Shown: positions 18,482-36,290 of the stretch, piece by piece
Numbering within the stretch: position 1 is the first letter of the stretch
Layout: each line of letters opens with the position of its first letter
Origin: Clostridia bacterium
GTDB taxonomy: Bacteria; CBDUZB01; JAGLHV01
Assembly: GCA_030595925.1 (NCBI GenBank)
Contig: JAUVLC010000010.1
Coordinates: forward strand, 1-38,922
Reading direction: 5' to 3'
DNA: 38,922 nt
The notes under the pieces: model-generated
Seen by the model: only the letters and a program-made list of their open reading frames with translations
Told to the model about the DNA's origin: nothing
The model's database searches: none
Position numbers and translations under genes: made by a program

Positions 18482-18580
18482 CTTCGGTAGCCCGGCTGTC
18501 CACTATTATAGCATAATGAACCACGTGGCTTTGCGTCTCTATCTTTAAATAAAACAATGATAGATTTGCCTTTTTCGAAG
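18482..18580 (-). ncRNA. c-di-GMP-I (GEMM-I) riboswitch aptamer upstream of the Tad pilin genes
   Basis: On the minus strand the GEMM-I order is present. P1 CUUCG (18580-18576) pairs with CGAAG (18486-18482). The joiner AAAAA leads to GGCAAA (18570-18565). P2 is UCUAUC/GAUAGA with a 15-base loop. The ligand-pocket stretch ACGCAAAGCC (18536-18527) follows, then P3 (outer CCAC/GUGG, inner AUUAU/AUAAU) and the closing segment ACAGCCGGGCUACCGAAGG. The paired bases, GGCAAA, CGCAAAGCC and CCGGGCUACC all match the family. The P2 loop lacks the usual GNRA tetraloop, so the P2-P3 dock may be weak. It lies in the leader of the pilin operon. Confidence 0.92.
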
Positions 18581-27157: not shown

Positions 27158-28075
27158 ATGCTTAAAAAAGTCATTCTGTTTGTTTTTTTACTTTTTATTC
27201 TGCAGTTTTCAACGGTAAAACCTTCCTATACTGCCGGTTTATCCACTTCTTTCGGAAAAATACTCATAGAAAATTTACAAATCGGGGAAACTTATAATAC
27301 CAAAGACTTAATTAATCTTCCTTTAAAAATAAAAAACACCAGCAATATTACCCTAACACTCAAAGTAGAACCTGCTTATCCCGGTAAAAATCAATTAGAA
27401 ATGGATTTTGAAGCTATCCCGGATCTTTCCTGGATAAAAACAGAAAAAGAAATACTTACGATACCCGCTAAGGAAACCAGGGAAACTAATCTATTCCTTT
27501 CTATTCCTAAAAACAAAAAATATTTAGGGAAAAAATTTATCGTTTATTTTTGGTCACATAGTATCGCCGGTACAGGTTCCATTGCTATAGGTCTGAAAAG
27601 TAAACTCTTATTTACTATTGCCTCCAAGCATTCCCCCCTTCCTAAAGGCGGAGCTTTTCAGGATGAAACGGGAAAAATAAAAGGAAACTACCAATTCAGC
27701 GTTCTCCCTTATGATATTGTAGTAAAAAATATTAAAATGGGTAAAGTATATAACCTTAAACAAACCCTTAAAATAATAAATCCCAATAAAAAATATGGTT
27801 TTACCTATGAAATAAAAAGTCTTTGTGTAGAAGATGTAGGAGGAAAACCAAAAGAAGGATACGAAGATACGCCTAATCCGGGATTTTTGACTTTCAATAA
27901 AACAAAAATTTTCGTTCCGGCAAAAGAGGAAAGAGAAGTAAAAATGTACCTTTCTTTTCCTAAGGAAAAAGAATACAAAGGTAAAAAATATGTGTTTATC
28001 ATTCAAGTAAAAATACTGGGGGAAAAGGTTCATCTAAAAGTTCTTTCCAGGCTTTATGTTACTGTGAATAAATAA
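27158..28075 (+). CDS. Secreted protein of two related Ig-like domains with a repeat-derived linker
   Basis: 305 aa with a signal peptide (VILFVFLLFILQFSTVKPSY). Two domains of similar plan follow: ENLQIGETYNTKDLINLPLK...IPAKETRETNLFLSIPKNKKYLGKKF, and KNIKMGKVYNLKQTLKIINP...VPAKEEREVKMYLSFPKEKEYKGKKY. They are internal duplicates of ~120 residues, probably beta sandwiches. The joining segment SPLPKGGAF (from 27631) is coded by a C/G palindrome like the one at 5412-5446. The RBS AAAGGAGG lies inside the end of the ligase gene, so the two are coupled. A periplasmic chaperone-like or adhesive role is possible; I recognise no named family. Confidence 0.8.
   Translation: MLKKVILFVFLLFILQFSTVKPSYTAGLSTSFGKILIENLQIGETYNTKDLINLPLKIKNTSNITLTLKVEPAYPGKNQLEMDFEAIPDLSWIKTEKEILTIPAKETRETNLFLSIPKNKKYLGKKFIVYFWSHSIAGTGSIAIGLKSKLLFTIASKHSPLPKGGAFQDETGKIKGNYQFSVLPYDIVVKNIKMGKVYNLKQTLKIINPNKKYGFTYEIKSLCVEDVGGKPKEGYEDTPNPGFLTFNKTKIFVPAKEEREVKMYLSFPKEKEYKGKKYVFIIQVKILGEKVHLKVLSRLYVTVNK
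27631..27653. repeat. C/G palindrome fragment inside a coding region
   Basis: CCCCCCTTCCTAAAGGCGG is an imperfect palindrome of the same type as at 5412-5446. Read in frame it codes SPLPKGG between the two Ig-like domains of the secreted protein. Palindromes that insert in frame between domains are known in Rickettsia; here the fit is by resemblance only. Confidence 0.5.
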
Positions 28076-28221
28076 ACATATTAATCAGTATATTAATTGT
28101 TTTCTCATGGAATAGATAATAGTTATGGTTAAATACAAAAAAATTTGACATTATTTTTAGAGAATATATTTAAGAAATGAAAAACCGAAGAAATATCAGT
28201 CCTATTTTAATTTATAATTGG

Positions 28222-28250
28222 TTGACAAATACTAAAAATGGTGCTATTTT
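28222..28250 (+). promoter_or_regulatory. Promoter of the second riboswitch transcript
   Basis: TTGACA (28222-28227), a 17-base spacer and TATTTT (28245-28250) preceded by TGC, an extended -10 box. Transcription would start near 28257, ~25 bases before the aptamer. Confidence 0.75.
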
Positions 28251-28281
28251 TATGGTAGATAATAGTTACATTATCTTTACA

Positions 28282-28362
28282 TTGGAAAAAGGTAAATCCG
28301 TCGTAAGGCGGAGACACAAAGTTACAGTCCCTGACTTAATCAAGGGAGGCTGGGTTACCCAA
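28282..28362 (+). ncRNA. Second c-di-GMP-I (GEMM-I) riboswitch aptamer
   Basis: P1 UUGG (28282-28285) pairs with CCAA (28359-28362). The joiner AAAAA leads to GGUAAA, as in the first aptamer except for C to U. P2 is UCCGUC/GGCGGA (28297-28302, 28307-28312) capped by GUAA, a GNRA tetraloop that the family uses to dock on P3. The pocket stretch ACACAAAGUUAC (from 28314) differs from ACGCAAAGCC by G to A in step with the C to U change, so a C-G pair has become U-A. P3 (CAG-CCCU/AGGG-CUG) and the closing GGGUUACCC follow. It precedes the secreted-protein genes starting at 28631. Any ORF across this stretch is not real. Confidence 0.85.
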
Positions 28363-28386
28363 GAAAATAGGAAAAAAACTTTTAAA

Positions 28387-28429
28387 AACCGGGTAGCCTG
28401 TAGCTAAAAACAGGGAATCCGGTTGTTTT
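28387..28429 (+). terminator. Terminator-like hairpin after the second riboswitch
   Basis: Outer stem AACCGG/CCGGTT (28387-28392, 28419-28424) and inner stem CCTGT/ACAGG (28397-28401, 28410-28414) with an 8-base loop, then GTTTTC. The T-run is weak. It lies 25 bases after the aptamer, as in a transcriptional switch. Confidence 0.65.
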
Positions 28430-28630
28430 CATTGTATAACTAATGAATTGCGAAAGTTTGAATAAAACAATTTAAAAATTAAAAAGAAAGGAAGTGACGA
28501 AAAAACAAACACAAAATTCTATCCCGAAGGAGGTGAAGAAATAGACTAAAAAAAAAGATGTAGAGATGTAGATGCAAATATAGGTTTTTACCTATAATTC
28601 AGTTGTAAAAAAATAAAGGAGGATTTAAAG
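28430..28630 (+). other. Leader between riboswitch and first secreted-protein gene
   Basis: A possible 16-codon peptide (GTG near 28493, MTKKQTQNSIPKEVKK) has a fair RBS but is weakly supported. A strong AAGGAGGTG near 28527 precedes only a two-codon frame. A perfect stem-loop TATAGGT-TTTT-ACCTATA lies at 28579-28596. The RBS for the next gene, AAAGGAGG, is near 28615-28622. Confidence 0.5.
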
Positions 28631-29200
28631 ATGAAAATATCAAAATTATTGAGTATCATCGGAATAGTGTTTTTATTGAGCATCTCCGGCGGTACTGTTT
28701 ATGCCGCTTTATTCGAGGAGATCTATTGTACAGTAATAATTCAGGATTTAAGCGTGTCTCTAGGTGCTTCAAGCTATCCTTTTGGACAATTAGCTACCAG
28801 TGGAACTTCTGCACCAACAGGACAAGCCATTGTCGTTACTAACGATGGAAATGTAACCGAAACCTATGAGCTAAGCCTTGCTTACACCCTTACCGGAAGT
28901 GGAACTGCCTGGACAGCGGGTGCGGCACCAGCAGCACACATATTCAGAATGTCAGCTCTCTTTTCATCAACAGCTAACGCATCAGGCAACTACGATGGAA
29001 CCGCAGATGTACTCACTACCAGTGACCAAGCCGCTTCTGGTACTATATTCGCTATAGATGCCGAAGGAGTAGGCGAAAAAGGATATAGTGTTGCCACCAG
29101 TGCAACCAGAGACTTAAATTTCTGTTTTGAAGCACCTACAAGTACTGATTTAACATCACAGCAGTATATTACGGTTACTATTACCGCTACTGCCAGTTAA
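28631..29200 (+). CDS. Secreted protein made of one stand-alone surface module
   Basis: 189 aa. Signal peptide (LLSIIGIVFLLSISGGTVYA), then LFEEIYCTVII, a motif also found right after the signal peptide of the product of 29647-31389. The rest (~40-189) is a Thr/Ser/Ala-rich beta domain (LSVSLGASSYPFGQLATSG, IVVTNDGNVTETYELSL, RDLNFCFEAPTSTDL, QQYITVTITA). The same module forms the last 150 residues of the proteins at 31834-33459 and 33660-36290. As the first gene after the c-di-GMP riboswitch, with a strong RBS, it is a candidate abundant surface or fibre protein. I know no named family; TasA-like fibre proteins show a loosely similar plan, but that is only a resemblance. Confidence 0.85.
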   Translation: MKISKLLSIIGIVFLLSISGGTVYAALFEEIYCTVIIQDLSVSLGASSYPFGQLATSGTSAPTGQAIVVTNDGNVTETYELSLAYTLTGSGTAWTAGAAPAAHIFRMSALFSSTANASGNYDGTADVLTTSDQAASGTIFAIDAEGVGEKGYSVATSATRDLNFCFEAPTSTDLTSQQYITVTITATAS

Positions 29201-29646
29201 TAGTTCTTACAAGGATCTAAGGTTTACCTTTGGGTTAGAAATTTTATTTTAACCTTTAAGAACATACTCCTTATGTCCTAAAAAAGAACAGGTGTAATTC
29301 TTTGAAACGGGTTGGATTGCTGAGTGGATGATAAATAATTAATCAGCTAAATTAGTCATTTTAGCTAAAATCAATAACTACAAATAAATTACTACTCTTG
29401 AAAATACTATGCGTTAATACCAATTATCCACTTTGAAACAAAAAATCCAAACAGTAAATTTTCGCCTTGAACTACACCATTTGTTGCTTCATCAGTAGTT
29501 TATTAATGGCATAATCTGCTTAACCAGATTAAATAGTAGTCATAATTGATTAAAAAGATTAAGAAAAACAGTAATAAGCCTGAAATCAGCAAAAAAGAGG
29601 TTTCTTGTGATAATTGAATTTAAACAAAACCAAAGGGGCAGGGAAA
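29201..29646. other. Gene-free stretch with small palindromes
   Basis: No convincing gene. A weak stem-loop with GGTTA/TAACC arms near 29233-29261 could end the upstream transcript. A 14-base perfect palindrome ATTTTAGCTAAAAT lies at 29358-29371. The GGGGCAGGG before 29647 is the next RBS. I see no clear promoter. Confidence 0.5.
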
Positions 29647-31389
29647 ATGAACAGTAAAAGACAAAACTCCATTTTCCGAATAGTGGTTTTTACCATCAGC
29701 CTGTTGTTAATAGGAATGGTTTTCTATACCCCTTTCCTGGTTGCTGCCCTATCCGAAGATATTTACTGCACTGTGATTATCACTCAAATACCTCCTCCAC
29801 CGGCTAATTTTTTGGGAACAGCTTTATCTACAACTACTATTCAGTGGTCATGGAATAACGTAACCAATGAAGATGGTTACCGTATTTATACTTCTACTGA
29901 TGGATTTAAAATAGCCGTAAGTACAGATATAATCACCTGGTCAGAAGGCGGGCTAAACACAAATACTCAGTACGAACGATATGTTAAAGCTTTTAACGGC
30001 TCCGGAGAAAGCTCTTCCTCTAATCAGGATATCCGCTATACTTTAGCTAACTTCCCCACGGGTTTAATTTCACCAACCAGCACTCAAACTTCAATTTCAC
30101 TTTCCTGGACAGCAGGTACAGGTGGAAACACCCGTTATGCCATAGAAAGAGCACCGGATAATAGCGGTGTTCCCGGAACATGGGGATTTATTAGAACCTG
30201 GGCAGATAATATTACTACTAGTAATTTTACTGATAACAGTTTAAATAACAACACTACTTATTGGTATCGAATCTGCGGGTATAACGGAGACAGCATTATT
30301 ACTTCAGCCGGTAATATCGTTTCTCAAACGACACTACCTTTTATCGATACCCTTGCGCCCAGAGAACCATCGGGATTAAGAGGAACTTTAAGCCCGGACA
30401 GAAATAGTATTACTTTAAACTGGCATGCGGTAACTCAAAATATCGACGGAACACCTTGTACTGATTTAGCCGGATATAATATCTATCGCACTGATAATAT
30501 CCATCTGGATATCTGGACATTGGTCAACGGTTCATTGGTTACCAATTTATTCTGGACAGATAATACTGTCAACGGACAAATATTTTATTACCGGGTAAAA
30601 GCAGAAGATTCTGCAAATAATGAAAGCACTAATGCGACAATGATTATTGACAGCAGTGCAAATACAAATATTATTGCTTTGGCAACAGATTTTTACACCA
30701 GGATATTAACCCCACACACAATTAATTCTCCGCTCTACTTAGAAAGCAATAATTTCAATGATGACTTAGTGCTTACCATCACTCAGCCACAAATAAGCAT
30801 AAATGACGGATCGATTTGTTCTTTTCTGTTTGCGGCTAATACTTATACCGATAATCAAAGAATTAATTGTATTTTTCCGTATCCGGAAGCCGAAATTATT
30901 CTGCGTTATCCGACAAGCAACGGATTTATTAGCGGAACCAATATTTTTGTTGACCAGGCTGATGAAAAACTTATTGTTTCCTGGCATAACGGAGTAGAAT
31001 GGATAAATCTGGGAGGGGATGTCGATACAGCCAATCAAACCATCACTATTAACTCCCGATATCTGGGTAACTATAAAATTATTCAGAGGTTAATTTTTTC
31101 CAGGTTCACCCTAACCAATGTTTATCCCCGTATTTTTAGCCCTAATGGTGACGGAATAAATGATGTGGCTAACTTTGTCTTTGAAAATCCTAATAATGAG
31201 GCAGTTACCGGCAAAATTTATGATTTAGGCGGCTCTTATGTAGCAGATCTAGTCCCCGGAGAAATAACTAATTCTCTTTGCTGGAATGGAAGATTCAGTG
31301 ATGGGAGAAGAGCAAGAAGCGGTGTCTATATTTATCAACTAAAGGGTGAAGGACAAACAATAAATGGAACAATTGTTCTAGCAAGGTAA
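29647..31389 (+). CDS. Secreted fibronectin-III protein with a gliding/FlgD-type C-terminal domain
   Basis: 580 aa from the ATG at 29647 (GGGGCAGGG just upstream; the frame is open from a TTG 11 codons earlier). Signal peptide (FTISLLLIGMVFYTPFLVAA), then the shared motif SEDIYCTVII. Three fibronectin type III domains follow (PPANFLGTALSTTTIQWSW; FPTGLISPTSTQTSISLSW; EPSGLRGTLSPDRNSITLNW), then a beta region (~340-490). The last ~90 residues form an FlgD-Ig/CHU_C-like domain (RIFSPNGDGINDVANFVFEN, YDLGGSYVADL, WNGRFSDGRRARSGVYIYQL). Fibronectin domains suggest binding to glycans or other cells. No enzyme domain is seen. It is part of the gene run behind the second riboswitch. Confidence 0.85.
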   Translation: MNSKRQNSIFRIVVFTISLLLIGMVFYTPFLVAALSEDIYCTVIITQIPPPPANFLGTALSTTTIQWSWNNVTNEDGYRIYTSTDGFKIAVSTDIITWSEGGLNTNTQYERYVKAFNGSGESSSSNQDIRYTLANFPTGLISPTSTQTSISLSWTAGTGGNTRYAIERAPDNSGVPGTWGFIRTWADNITTSNFTDNSLNNNTTYWYRICGYNGDSIITSAGNIVSQTTLPFIDTLAPREPSGLRGTLSPDRNSITLNWHAVTQNIDGTPCTDLAGYNIYRTDNIHLDIWTLVNGSLVTNLFWTDNTVNGQIFYYRVKAEDSANNESTNATMIIDSSANTNIIALATDFYTRILTPHTINSPLYLESNNFNDDLVLTITQPQISINDGSICSFLFAANTYTDNQRINCIFPYPEAEIILRYPTSNGFISGTNIFVDQADEKLIVSWHNGVEWINLGGDVDTANQTITINSRYLGNYKIIQRLIFSRFTLTNVYPRIFSPNGDGINDVANFVFENPNNEAVTGKIYDLGGSYVADLVPGEITNSLCWNGRFSDGRRARSGVYIYQLKGEGQTINGTIVLAR

Positions 31390-31833: not shown

Positions 31834-33459
31834 ATGAAAAACAGACTCATCTTTATTCTAATTTTGATTTTCTCAATTTTTCTATTAGAAACCAAACCGC
31901 TTTTTAGTGGTGACTTTATCATTACCCAGAAAACGCCATCATCACTACAAAAATATCCTCCCCAAATAGTTTTAGATAGTACCAATAATAAACTTCATTA
32001 TGTATGGAATGAACTTGACGGAAGTAAAAACCAAATCTGGACGGCAGAAATGAATACTGATGGGACCGGCTGGTCAGCAACAAAAAGAACTACCTCTGCT
32101 TATCACAAAGACTTTCCACAATTAGTTTTAGATAGCACCAATAATAAACTTTATTATGTCTGGGGTGAAAATGACGGAACTTATGATCAAATCTGGACGG
32201 CAGAAATGAATATTGATGGGACCGGCTGGTCATCAACAAAAAGAACTACCTCTAATTATTACAAACATTGCCCCCAATTAGTTCTGGATAGCAGCAATAA
32301 TAAACTTTATTATGTCTGGCAGGAACTTGACGCAAGTTTTAACTACCAGATTTGGACTGCAGAGATGAATATTGATGGGACCGGCTGGTCGGAGACAAAA
32401 CAAACTACCTCTGCTTATAGCAAAGAGAATCCCGAATTAGTTCTGGATAGCACCAATAATAAACTTTATTATGTCTGGCAGGAATCTGACGGAGCTGGTA
32501 AATACCAAATCTGGACTGCAGAGATGAATACGAATCAAACCGGCTGGTTAGCAACAAAAAGAACTACTTCTAATTATCTTAAATACGTCCCCCACTTAAT
32601 TTTAGATAGCACAAATAATAAACTTTATTATGTCTGGCATGAAAAGGACGGAGCTGGTAAAAACCAAATCTGGACGGCAGAGATGAATACTAATGGGACC
32701 GGCTGGGCAGCAACACAAAGAACAACCTCTGCTTATGATAAACTCAACCCGCAATTAGTTCTGGATAGCACCAATAATAAACTTCATTATGTCTGGCAGG
32801 AATATGACGTAAGTTTTAAATGGCAAATCTGGACTGCAGAGATGAATACTGATGGGAGCGGCTGGGCAGCAACACAAAGAACAACCTCTGCTTCTGATAA
32901 ACTCAACCCGCAATTAGTTCTGGATGGTAGTAATGGCCAAATCCATTATATCTGGAAAGATGATTCTAATAAGCTCTTTGTCGCTGTATATACCCTTGGC
33001 CCTGGATTAAGTATCTCTCTTAGCTCTTCCTCTTATGATTTTGAGACGGTGATTAAAGGAAGCACAACTACCTCAACCAGTGCAATTACCGTCACTAATG
33101 ATGGTTCTGTAAATGAACGATATTCTCTCCATCTTACTGCCCCTATTGGTTGGACCTGTGTCACTGATACTGCACCGGGAGTAGAAGAATTCCGTATGTG
33201 CGGTAATTTCCAGACTGCTACTGCCCAAAGCAGTCATTTTGTTATTGCCGTATCTTCTTCTGATGCTATCGGAACTACACAAAGGGTATGTACAGATGCA
33301 GATTTTGCCAGGGATAACGAGGGAGAAGCAGCTAAGGGATATAATATCCCTCAAGGGCAAGACAGATATCTATGGTTCCGGTTTGAGGCACCAACAGACA
33401 CTACTTTAAAAACACAACAGACAATTACCATAACAGTAACGGCTGAAGAACAACCGTAG
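31834..33459 (+). CDS. Secreted protein with six-plus tandem ~53-residue repeats and the shared C-terminal module
   Basis: 541 aa. Signal peptide (LIFILILIFSIFLLETKPLF). From residue 43 six repeats of 52-53 residues run to ~358 with the pattern PQLVLDSTNNKLYYVW...QIWTAEMN-x-DGTGW-x-x-TKRTTS, and a partial seventh unit follows (PQLVLDGSNGQIHYIWKDD). Seven units with WTAE/YYVW strands suggest a seven-bladed propeller. Residues 392-541 are the shared module (ISLSSSSYDFETV, SAITVTNDGSVNERYSL, QTITITVTAEEQP), nearly the same as in the next gene. Propeller heads on exported proteins commonly bind sugars. Function beyond surface binding cannot be told. Confidence 0.87.
   Translation: MKNRLIFILILIFSIFLLETKPLFSGDFIITQKTPSSLQKYPPQIVLDSTNNKLHYVWNELDGSKNQIWTAEMNTDGTGWSATKRTTSAYHKDFPQLVLDSTNNKLYYVWGENDGTYDQIWTAEMNIDGTGWSSTKRTTSNYYKHCPQLVLDSSNNKLYYVWQELDASFNYQIWTAEMNIDGTGWSETKQTTSAYSKENPELVLDSTNNKLYYVWQESDGAGKYQIWTAEMNTNQTGWLATKRTTSNYLKYVPHLILDSTNNKLYYVWHEKDGAGKNQIWTAEMNTNGTGWAATQRTTSAYDKLNPQLVLDSTNNKLHYVWQEYDVSFKWQIWTAEMNTDGSGWAATQRTTSASDKLNPQLVLDGSNGQIHYIWKDDSNKLFVAVYTLGPGLSISLSSSSYDFETVIKGSTTTSTSAITVTNDGSVNERYSLHLTAPIGWTCVTDTAPGVEEFRMCGNFQTATAQSSHFVIAVSSSDAIGTTQRVCTDADFARDNEGEAAKGYNIPQGQDRYLWFRFEAPTDTTLKTQQTITITVTAEEQP
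31960..32985 (+). repeat. Tandem coding repeats, six units of ~158 bases plus a partial seventh
   Basis: Each unit begins CCN-CA(A/C)-TTAG/ATAG-type codons for PQLVLDS and is 156-159 bases long (six units: 31960-32907). Units share long exact stretches, such as those coding DSTNNKL and IWTAEMN. Spacing always keeps frame. This is a gene-internal repeat, not CRISPR. Confidence 0.85.
33007..33459 (+). repeat. 453-bp duplicated module, copy 1 (copy 2 at 35838-36290)
   Basis: The last 453 bases (150 codons plus stop) of this gene and of the next large gene align without gaps. One exact stretch of 35 bases lies at 33181-33215 and 36012-36046. Most differences are single bases. This points to recent duplication or gene conversion. 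Confidence 0.85.
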
Positions 33460-33659: not shown

Positions 33660-36290
33660 ATGAAATTAACAAGAAAAAGCTATTTATTATTTTTGTTTTT
33701 TATCATTCTCAATTTTAGTCTTTGGGTTCAATATGTTAAAGCAAACACGGTAACCGTATATTCAAGTGTCGATAATGGACTGGATAAAGATAATTCTGCT
33801 GTGGTAGATAATTCAGCCACCGGATATGCTATCGGACATTCTGCCTCTCATATGTTTAGATATATTGTCCAATTTGACCTTCCTTCTTATATTCCCCCTG
33901 GTTCTTCCATAAATTCCGCTACCTTTTATATATACGAAACAGGAGGTGGAAGCAGTGGTTTAACCCACAGGTGTTATAAACTTACCGAAGCATGGAATAC
34001 TGATTATGCTTGTTGGGATGATCGGGACAACGGTGTTTCCTGGACCAATGCGGGTGGAACATTTAGCACTGAACTGGGCAATTATAGCTCACAAGTGATA
34101 TGGGGAGCAGAAGCAAGTTTCCCGGCTACCAGCATAGTTCAGGACTGGTGGAATACACCGGCTAATAATAATGGCTTAATTGTTAAGTGCGATAATGAAA
34201 CCGGTTCTCCTACAAAATATACTAGTTTTTTTTCCGAAGATGTAACCTCTTATCGTGATTTGGTTCGGCCAAAGTTAGTGGTCGATTATACCCCCAGCGG
34301 GCAAACCCAGGTAACCATTGCCAAACACAGTATTTGTTCTTCTTTACATCCCGGTGCCAGTGACAAATGTGTTGGCACCTTTAAATACTCCGCTGACAAT
34401 ACCTCCGAACCCCGTGATTTAACCACTATTACTCTAACCGAATATGGAACTTGTGATGCCGACGCTATCTTAAGTAACGTTAAATTATTCATCGATACAG
34501 ATGGAGTATATACTGGACATGATGAGACTCTCTTAGGTTCCTCTACAAATTTCAATAGTAGTGACAAAGCCGATTTTAACTTCTCATCAACTCCCGTCAC
34601 TGCAGACTATGCCGTAACGCACTATATTCATGTAGTCTTAGATGTGAGTTCCGGTGCAGAACTGGGTAAGACTGTAGGAATAGAAATTAATTCTTCCAGT
34701 GATGTCACTATTTCAACCGAAAGTGATGATATTACTACCTATCCCGTCCAATTGGGTACAGTGGTTCTCACTTCTTCTACCATGTATTATGTCCATTCCG
34801 ACGCGCCGGATGATAGTGGTGTACCTAACGGTGATCCCGGGGTACTTGATAACTGCTGGAAAACAATCGGACAGGCATTTTCCGACCTTCGCAGCAATGA
34901 ATCAAACGACCTCACCGATAAGGGAGACTTTCTTATCCAGATTCAAAATAGTACCAATTATGTGGAAGGGGTCCTGCTGGAAAATCTGACGACAACCCCT
35001 AATGATACCTTAACTATCCGCGCGGCCCCTGGAGAAAGGCCCACATGGAAAAATGACACAAGCACGGTTGGTCGATACTGGGACTTATGGACTTACTCCT
35101 GCCTGGATATCGACATTTCCAATGTTGTAGTCGAAGGCATAAATTTCACAGGGACACAGCACAGAGGTATCTTTTTCGACGTTGATACGACAAACATCAT
35201 AATTCGCAATTGCATATTCCATGATATGCCGCTTTCTACAGGTGTCTACAATGGTAATGGTCATGGAATATGGACTAACTTTGGTGGAGCAGATTGCCAA
35301 CACAAGATATACAACAATGTATTCTACAATGTTGTCTACGGAATAAAAATTGGGAATAGAGGTCCTATCAAAATAAGGAACAATATCTTCTGTGTTAATG
35401 ATTGCTCGATCGAGGTTGAGATTGGTTTACTAAAATGGCAGGATTTTGAGCATAACACCCCGGATTCAGACTATAACCTCTTCTATATCGCCGGCGGCAA
35501 CAGATGTGCTTATTCATGGTACTCTCCCCAGAATTATCCCACCCTTGTAGATTGGCAAGGGTGCCCGATAACCCCGGCACCCGATTCACAGTCCCTAACT
35601 GCTGACCCAAAGTTTGTAAATCCGGGAGTAGATTTTCATCTTAAATCTATTTTTGGCCACTGGACAGATTCAGGCTGGGTTAATGATGCTGAATCCAGTC
35701 TCGGCATCGATACTGGAGATAATGTTACTTTTCCTTACAATGACTATTCAAACGAAATAGAAGACAATGGCGACCGTGTTAATATAGGTGCCTATGGCAA
35801 CACTAACCAGGCTTCACTTAGTGGGGCATTGTCATTGTTAAGTATCTCTCTTGGTTCTTTTTCTTATGATTTTGGCACAGTAATTAAAGAAAGTACCAAT
35901 ATCATCGTAAGTTCCATAACCGTCACCAATAATGGAGGAGTCAACGAACGCTATTCCCTTCATCTTGCTGCCCCTGCCGGCTGGACTGCTGTTACTGATA
36001 CTGCACCCGGGGTAGAAGAATTCCGTATGTGCGGTAATTTCCAGACGGCTACTGCCCAGAGCAGCCATTTTGATATTGGCGGAAGTTTTTCTGATGCTAT
36101 CGGGACTACCCCCCGGGTATGTTCTACCGGAGATTTCAGCAAAGATGACGAAGGAGAAGGGGCTAAAGTATATAATGTGCCCCAAGGTCAAGATAGATAT
36201 CTATGGTTCAGGTTTGAATCACCAACCAGTACCGCTTTAACCACACAACAAACCATAACAGTAACTATAACGGCTGAAGAGCAACCGTAA
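33660..36290 (+). CDS. Large secreted protein: DNRLRE-like domain, beta-helix and shared C-terminal module
   Basis: 876 aa. Signal peptide (YLLFLFFIILNFSLWVQYVKA). Residues ~28-205 resemble the DNRLRE/CBM96 type (FRYIVQFDLPSYIPPGSSIN, ATFYIYETGG, WWNTPANNNGLIVKCDN, RPKLVVDYTP), a carbohydrate-binding fold. Residues ~210-365 are another beta domain (FKYSADNTSEPRDLTTITL). Residues ~400-720 look like a right-handed beta-helix (DISNVVVEGINFTG, NIIIRNCIFHD, HKIYNNVFYNVVYGIKI, PIKIRNNIF), as in polysaccharide-binding or -cleaving proteins. Residues 727-876 are the shared module, nearly identical to the previous gene's end. Codon and GC content in the beta-helix part (for example 34970-35400) look richer than the flanks, hinting at separate origin. 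Confidence 0.85.
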   Translation: MKLTRKSYLLFLFFIILNFSLWVQYVKANTVTVYSSVDNGLDKDNSAVVDNSATGYAIGHSASHMFRYIVQFDLPSYIPPGSSINSATFYIYETGGGSSGLTHRCYKLTEAWNTDYACWDDRDNGVSWTNAGGTFSTELGNYSSQVIWGAEASFPATSIVQDWWNTPANNNGLIVKCDNETGSPTKYTSFFSEDVTSYRDLVRPKLVVDYTPSGQTQVTIAKHSICSSLHPGASDKCVGTFKYSADNTSEPRDLTTITLTEYGTCDADAILSNVKLFIDTDGVYTGHDETLLGSSTNFNSSDKADFNFSSTPVTADYAVTHYIHVVLDVSSGAELGKTVGIEINSSSDVTISTESDDITTYPVQLGTVVLTSSTMYYVHSDAPDDSGVPNGDPGVLDNCWKTIGQAFSDLRSNESNDLTDKGDFLIQIQNSTNYVEGVLLENLTTTPNDTLTIRAAPGERPTWKNDTSTVGRYWDLWTYSCLDIDISNVVVEGINFTGTQHRGIFFDVDTTNIIIRNCIFHDMPLSTGVYNGNGHGIWTNFGGADCQHKIYNNVFYNVVYGIKIGNRGPIKIRNNIFCVNDCSIEVEIGLLKWQDFEHNTPDSDYNLFYIAGGNRCAYSWYSPQNYPTLVDWQGCPITPAPDSQSLTADPKFVNPGVDFHLKSIFGHWTDSGWVNDAESSLGIDTGDNVTFPYNDYSNEIEDNGDRVNIGAYGNTNQASLSGALSLLSISLGSFSYDFGTVIKESTNIIVSSITVTNNGGVNERYSLHLAAPAGWTAVTDTAPGVEEFRMCGNFQTATAQSSHFDIGGSFSDAIGTTPRVCSTGDFSKDDEGEGAKVYNVPQGQDRYLWFRFESPTSTALTTQQTITVTITAEEQP
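35838..36290 (+). repeat. 453-bp duplicated module, copy 2
   Basis: Gap-free match to 33007-33459. It codes the last 150 residues and stop of the beta-helix protein. A more distant version makes up most of the gene at 28631-29200. Confidence 0.85.

Follow-up and report, generated by a model that had tools for sequence, protein, structure and literature searches.

A GEMM-I leader ahead of secreted-protein genes in a Clostridia bacterium: an ordinary aptamer and a predicted c-di-GMP OFF switch

A contig from an uncultivated lineage of Clostridia carries two GEMM-I aptamers, the second of which differs from the first close to the ligand pocket. Does this difference alter the choice of ligand, and by what means would the second aptamer control the genes behind it? 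The window, by which we mean the whole stretch of 38,922 nucleotides that was analysed (contig JAUVLC010000010.1 of assembly GCA_030595925.1), has its first aptamer at 18483-18580 on the minus strand, with the motifs GGCAAA and ACGCAAAG; in the second the corresponding motifs are GGUAAA (28291-28296) and ACACAAAG (28314-28321). The original prediction saw in the second locus a working aptamer with a compensatory base-pair change, its own promoter and a following hairpin, controlling secreted proteins, and supposed that the changed bases could shift the ligand. Comparison with related genomes bears out the architecture and lends no support to a shifted ligand. The most probable reading, to which we give a probability of about 0.8, is that of a canonical class I c-di-GMP riboswitch acting as a transcriptional OFF switch.

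The aptamer fold and the compensated pair

The aptamer (28281-28363; Table 1) is matched over the full model (positions 1-87) by the Rfam family for c-di-GMP-I, RF01051, with a covariance score of 59.2 bits against a cut-off of 35, which establishes it as a second, full-length GEMM-I aptamer in the window. It is also matched by RF03167 (c-di-GMP-I-GGC) with 60.3 bits, 1.3 bits above the cut-off of 59.

The predicted helices P1, P2 and P3 are backed by covariation. In an alignment of 36 distinct genus aptamers, 93.9% of cells are paired, with P1 the weakest helix at 76.4%. The covariation score of the fold is 0.617, where shuffles average 0.262; it lies far above slid controls and is reached by none of 500 shuffles, a count that does not amount to a probability because the sequences are related. 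The second pair of P1, which is G-C in the window aptamer and C-G in most relatives, covaries (C-G 19, U-A 10, G-C 4, U-G 2, and one unpaired). P2 is 99.5% paired, shows two-sided changes at all six of its pairs, and ends in the anticipated GUAA tetraloop, closed by a C-G pair. P3 is built of a foot of A-U, G-U, U-G and U-G, then CAG/CUG and UCCC/GGGA; the foot is 97.2% paired across the genus aptamers. The interhelical pair C44-G83 is present as well (C at 28315 and G at 28349, from the RF03167 alignment).

In Vc2 numbering, the change between the two window aptamers is from C22-G45 to U22-A45, in the pair adjoining G21-C46. Among the 36 aptamers of the genus alignment this pair is C-G in 25 and U-A in 11; the wider count of parsed genus aptamers gives 30 with C-G and 12 with U-A, and neither set contains a mixed combination. 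The change is thus truly compensatory and, as had been argued, a good sign of a working fold. U22-A45 is found outside the genus also, in 5 of 44 cleanly parsed aptamers from two other phyla, the remaining 39 having C-G (two further loci were misparsed). Judged by these alignments it is a common alternative to C22-G45 and no rarity, and the aptamer, though well supported, belongs to the ordinary run of the known GEMM-I class.

Table 1. Features of the leader and of the genes behind it. Residue numbers follow Vc2.
Feature	Position	Strand	Basis
Sigma-70-type promoter, extended -10: TTGACA, 17 nt, TGcTATTTT	28222-28250	+	consensus match and conservation
GEMM-I (c-di-GMP-I) aptamer	28281/28282-28362/28363	+	RF01051 and RF03167 covariance matches
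P1 5' strand UUGG	28282-28285	+	pairs with CCAA 28359-28362
G20, G21, U22	28291-28293	+	RF03167 alignment and published Vc2 pocket residues; pairs G21-C46, U22-A45
P2 helix with GUAA tetraloop (28303-28306)	28297-28312	+	predicted pair list
C44, A45, C46, A47, A48: interhelical C44, pair partners, stacking base A47	28315-28319	+	RF03167 alignment
P3 helix, bulged G83 at 28349	28320-28356	+	predicted pair list
Predicted antiterminator strand 1, AGUUACAG (P3 5' strand)	28320-28327	+	8 pairs with 28398-28405; covarying in 15 leaders
Predicted antiterminator strand 2, GGUUACCC (P3/P1 3' strand, including C92)	28353-28360	+	pairs with 28391-28398
C92, predicted Watson-Crick partner of one c-di-GMP guanine	28358	+	alignment; role from PMC3764141, PMC4744006
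Two-tier terminator-like hairpin and U tract UUGUUUU	28387-28429	+	AACCGGGU/AUCCGGUU and CCUGU/ACAGG stems
Antiterminator partner CUGUAGCU in terminator 5' arm and loop	28398-28405	+	complementary to 28320-28327
Putative controlled gene 1: 189-aa predicted secreted protein	28631-29200	+	signal peptide by eye; orthologues in G001, G002
Downstream gene: 580-aa predicted secreted protein, fibronectin III domains	29647-31389	+	fn3 1.3e-11

The expression platform and the direction of control

The leader has a predicted extended -10 promoter of its own, as proposed. It is the best promoter-like site within 28050-29700, its hexamers TTGACA (28222-28227) and TATTTT (28245-28250, preceded by TG) match the consensus at 10 of 12 positions, and the hexamer layout is identical at the orthologous or paralogous loci L065, L066 and L069. 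The two-tier hairpin is likewise present (28387-28424) and is conserved at the same three loci. It is terminator-like, with an energy of -17.8 kcal/mol (28388-28423) and a short, interrupted U tract that runs to 28429; a pattern scan requiring an uninterrupted stem does not count it among the terminators. Two other species preserve the whole arrangement of promoter, aptamer, hairpin and genes: in L069 (species G002) and L065 (G001) these elements are followed by an orthologous secreted protein and then by the same second secreted gene. L066 (G001) has the same type of aptamer ahead of a pilus-assembly-like gene. In L065 a short reading frame (MNTKFYPKGG...) lies between the hairpin and the gene; it is absent from the window and from L069 and was set aside.

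The terminator begins 25 nt past the aptamer and has no strand in common with it, so that aptamer and terminator can coexist. Rival helices could form between aptamer strands and the 5' arm and loop of the terminator (Table 1). The helix between the P3 5' strand and the terminator loop keeps a constant distance from the beginning of the terminator stem in 15 leaders from three species. Over six positions, 82 of 90 possible pairs in these leaders are Watson-Crick, and 43 of 20,000 permutations are as good; with 17 leaders the count is 84 of 102 pairs, and 145 of 20,000 permutations are as good. The 17-leader figure is the fairer one, since the 15 leaders were picked by having at least four of the six pairs and the larger set adds two that have the stem anchor without the motif. 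In 15 distinct sequences the columns of the rival helix are 91.1% paired, and their covariation score is reached by 17 of 500 shuffles; independent changes are few, with two-sided changes in four cells. Nucleotide 53, which is unpaired in P3, changes in L007/L059 and L048 from A to G, together with its partner in the loop of the terminator, which there is C instead of U, and this swap of A-U for G-C is the most telling support for the predicted helix. Its longest form, of 8 pairs, is that of the window and L069.

A second helix (28353-28360/28391-28398) is found in the window and L069 and not in all leaders. Ensembles were computed for growing transcripts with an energy model that is without ligand and without tertiary contacts. 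In partial transcripts ending at 28399-28419 the second helix has a probability of about 1.00 and the conserved helix reaches 0.17; from 28423 onward the terminator has a probability of 0.98-1.00. The second helix prevails in the ensemble computed for the window, but as it is absent from L065 and L066 it was rejected as the switch on its own, and for this reason the helix with the P3 5' strand is taken as the conserved element. Once the RNA is complete, the computation prefers the terminator whether the aptamer is there or not, which means that the switch has to be a kinetic one. In these models the transcripts show the pattern of a kinetic OFF switch, like that reported for Cd1 of C. difficile.

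The terminator is independent of the aptamer and the antiterminator needs aptamer strands, which is the arrangement of an OFF switch. Sequence and comparison show the fold of the aptamer, its canonical pocket, the conservation of the rival helix, the hairpin and the preserved order of genes; from these we infer that c-di-GMP is the ligand, that binding turns transcription off, and that the switch operates in the cell. The start of transcription would lie some 25-30 nt ahead of the aptamer. Bound c-di-GMP would lock P1, P2 and P3, leaving the strand 28387-28401 to fold into the terminator hairpin, and RNA synthesis would end near 28429. When no ligand is bound, the P3 5' strand (28320-28327) would pair with the terminator 5' arm and loop (within 28391-28405), where in the window copy the P3/P1 3' strand (28353-28360) could pair also; this antiterminator pairing would delay the terminator, and RNA polymerase would read into the secreted-protein gene at 28631.

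Control in the ON direction, with the ligand preventing termination, is known in GEMM-I leaders such as Bc3-5, in which terminator and aptamer share strands (PMC4759541); it is unlikely here, where the terminator stands clear of the aptamer and it is the antiterminator that has aptamer strands in common. Slightly less likely still is that the aptamer folds within a leader that has decayed, or that is read constitutively, and regulates little. The interruption of the hairpin, the shortness of the U tract and three wobbles in the P3 foot would all fit such decay, but promoter, aptamer, rival helix, hairpin and gene order have been kept in two other species, the changes in relatives are compensatory rather than disruptive, and the window and L069 carry the longest rival helix. 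A c-di-GMP OFF switch thus remains the preferred reading.

The ligand pocket

Ligand contacts have been assigned to G20, A47, A48 and C92 (PMC3764141, PMC4744006). The pair C22-G45 is the docking site of A49, whose only role is in helping A47 to stack (PMC3764141). By alignment, all four pocket residues of the window RNA are canonical (G20 at 28291, A47 at 28318, A48 at 28319 and C92 at 28358), and position 20, which governs specificity, is G, as in the c-di-GMP type. The supposition that the changed bases shift ligand choice is therefore unsupported, since the pair 22-45 makes no ligand contact and the contact residues are unchanged. The same holds for GUU in place of GCC. These bases are nucleotides 50-52, in the foot of P3, and are still paired through wobbles (G-U, U-G and U-G with 28353-28355); the relatives L065, L066 and L069 carry GCU there. 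Three successive wobbles may weaken P3 or binding, so affinity could differ. We consider it most improbable that U22-A45 and an all-wobble P3 foot give the subgroup of L065, L066, L069 and the window a clearly different affinity or a preference for another cyclic dinucleotide.

The highest Rfam score is that for RF03167, a variant class whose true ligand has not, to our knowledge, been established. Membership on the strength of this score was rejected because the G47 of the model consensus GACGCGAAG is absent, A being found at 28318 and at position 47 in all parsed genus aptamers; the class name GGC presumably refers to positions 20, 47 and 92. The window RNA probably fits the model because its P3 is short. 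GEMM-Ib riboswitches, of the cGAMP type, carry A at position 20, and membership of this class was rejected also, with G at 28291.

That the aptamer senses another cyclic dinucleotide, be it cGAMP, c-di-AMP or an unknown one, deserves very little credence: the top score for RF03167 and the departure of pair 22-45 and the P3 foot from the commonest type would speak for it, but the contact residues are canonical, the consensus of that model has G where the window RNA has A47, its cut-off is passed by 8 of the 19 GEMM-I matches of the genome, and U22-A45 is found with canonical pockets in another phylum. The pocket appears suited to c-di-GMP, the customary messenger. An RNA that marginally matches an orphan-ligand variant class of Rfam can thus be a canonical aptamer for c-di-GMP whose P3 is short, and existing knowledge of GEMM-I ligand choice is left unchanged.

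Genes behind the leader, the lineage and known systems

The aptamer precedes predicted secreted-protein genes, in keeping with the original prediction. The product of the first has orthologues of 78-79% identity in G001 and G002, where the same leader precedes them. It has no Pfam or NCBIfam family above cut-off and no match over the cut-off in a PDB search, and single-sequence AlphaFold2 gave a mean pLDDT of 43, with only a helical signal peptide discernible. Its mature part (28706-29197) recurs with 38-43% identity at 33001-33447 and 35832-36278, where two further large proteins encoded in the window have their C-terminal ends, and again on contigs C96 and C13; this repeated part resembles a shared surface or sorting domain. 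The second gene follows after a gap of about 450 nt, and its position is shared in G001 and G002. Directly after their signal peptides both proteins, and their orthologues, have the sequence AL(S/F)E(D/E)IYCTVII (28706-28740 and 29740-29790). Just upstream of the first gene, a perfect 6-bp inverted repeat, ATAGGT-TTTT-ACCTAT, runs into TATAAT (28580-28602); it is conserved in L065 and L069 and could be an extra promoter or an RNA hairpin.

The genome (2.6 Mb, 193 contigs) has 19 GEMM-I matches, 18 of them above cut-off, and two congeners have 12 each. For a conserved secretion ATPase of the genome the nearest matches were about 45% identical, with Elusimicrobia at the head. Of the other GEMM-I leaders of the genus, the majority stand before genes for pilin-like, pilus-assembly-like or signal-peptide proteins. 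The first aptamer of the window lies upstream of short Flp-pilin-like ORFs and of Tad secretion genes (RcpC/CpaB-like, secretin and T2SSE ATPase). Signalling through c-di-GMP is made plausible by nine domain matches to GGDEF and seven of the HD-GYP type; a search of the genome for EAL domains gave no match. Two of the GGDEF proteins (L153 and L157) have N at the usual D of GHxxGD.

Several unusual aptamers were seen in the same survey. Four have A at position 20 (AAAAGCAAA): L011 (G000:C56:6807-6887, minus), L061 (G002:C179), L042 (G001:C125) and L058 (G001:C323:7260-7343). They are possibly a cGAMP branch outside Geobacter. In L017/L033 (G000:C178:2822-2963), L062 (G001:C31:4467-4608) and L063 (G002:C336:3944-4085, minus) the 3' half is duplicated, as AGCCGAGCGTAYCGAT and, some 50 nt later, AGCCGAGCTACCGA; the arrangement is conserved in three species, and the two copies appear to be alternative closing strands for one aptamer. 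L019 (G000:C32:458-619, minus), a GEMM-I match of 34 bits, just below cut-off, carries a long insert behind GAC as well as two candidate 3' halves, and is perhaps a degenerate or rearranged tandem.

The related leaders suggest that c-di-GMP switches off secreted surface-protein genes. This adds a c-di-GMP switch, with a comparative working model, in an uncultivated lineage whose 18 above-cut-off leaders stand mostly ahead of pilus, pilin-like and secreted-protein genes. The new part is the evidence on the switch, an expression platform found lineage-wide.

Among known systems, c-di-GMP-I-GGC has in common with the window RNA its short P3 and differs from it in having G as the consensus base 47. 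GEMM-Ib, the class of the 3',3'-cGAMP riboswitches in Geobacter, shares the scaffold and has A20 where the window RNA has G20. Its members are present many times in one genome, in some cases ahead of pilus genes (PMC6456294). Vc2 of Vibrio cholerae, the type example of RF01051, has the same three-helix aptamer, GNRA loop, C44-G83 pair and pocket of G20, A47 and C92. It has C22-G45, however, where the window RNA has U22-A45, a swapped P1 pair and a terminator-based platform, and the P3 of the window RNA is short and without the usual loop receptor sequence. The closest in logic is Cd1 of Clostridioides difficile, a GEMM-I transcriptional OFF switch in which aptamer and terminator can coexist, both compete with an antiterminator, and the ligand turns transcription off (PMC9262584). 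The same competition is proposed for the window; its aptamer, unlike that of Cd1, has a P1 helix, and the predicted antiterminator in 15 leaders of the genus is formed by the P3 5' strand and the terminator loop.
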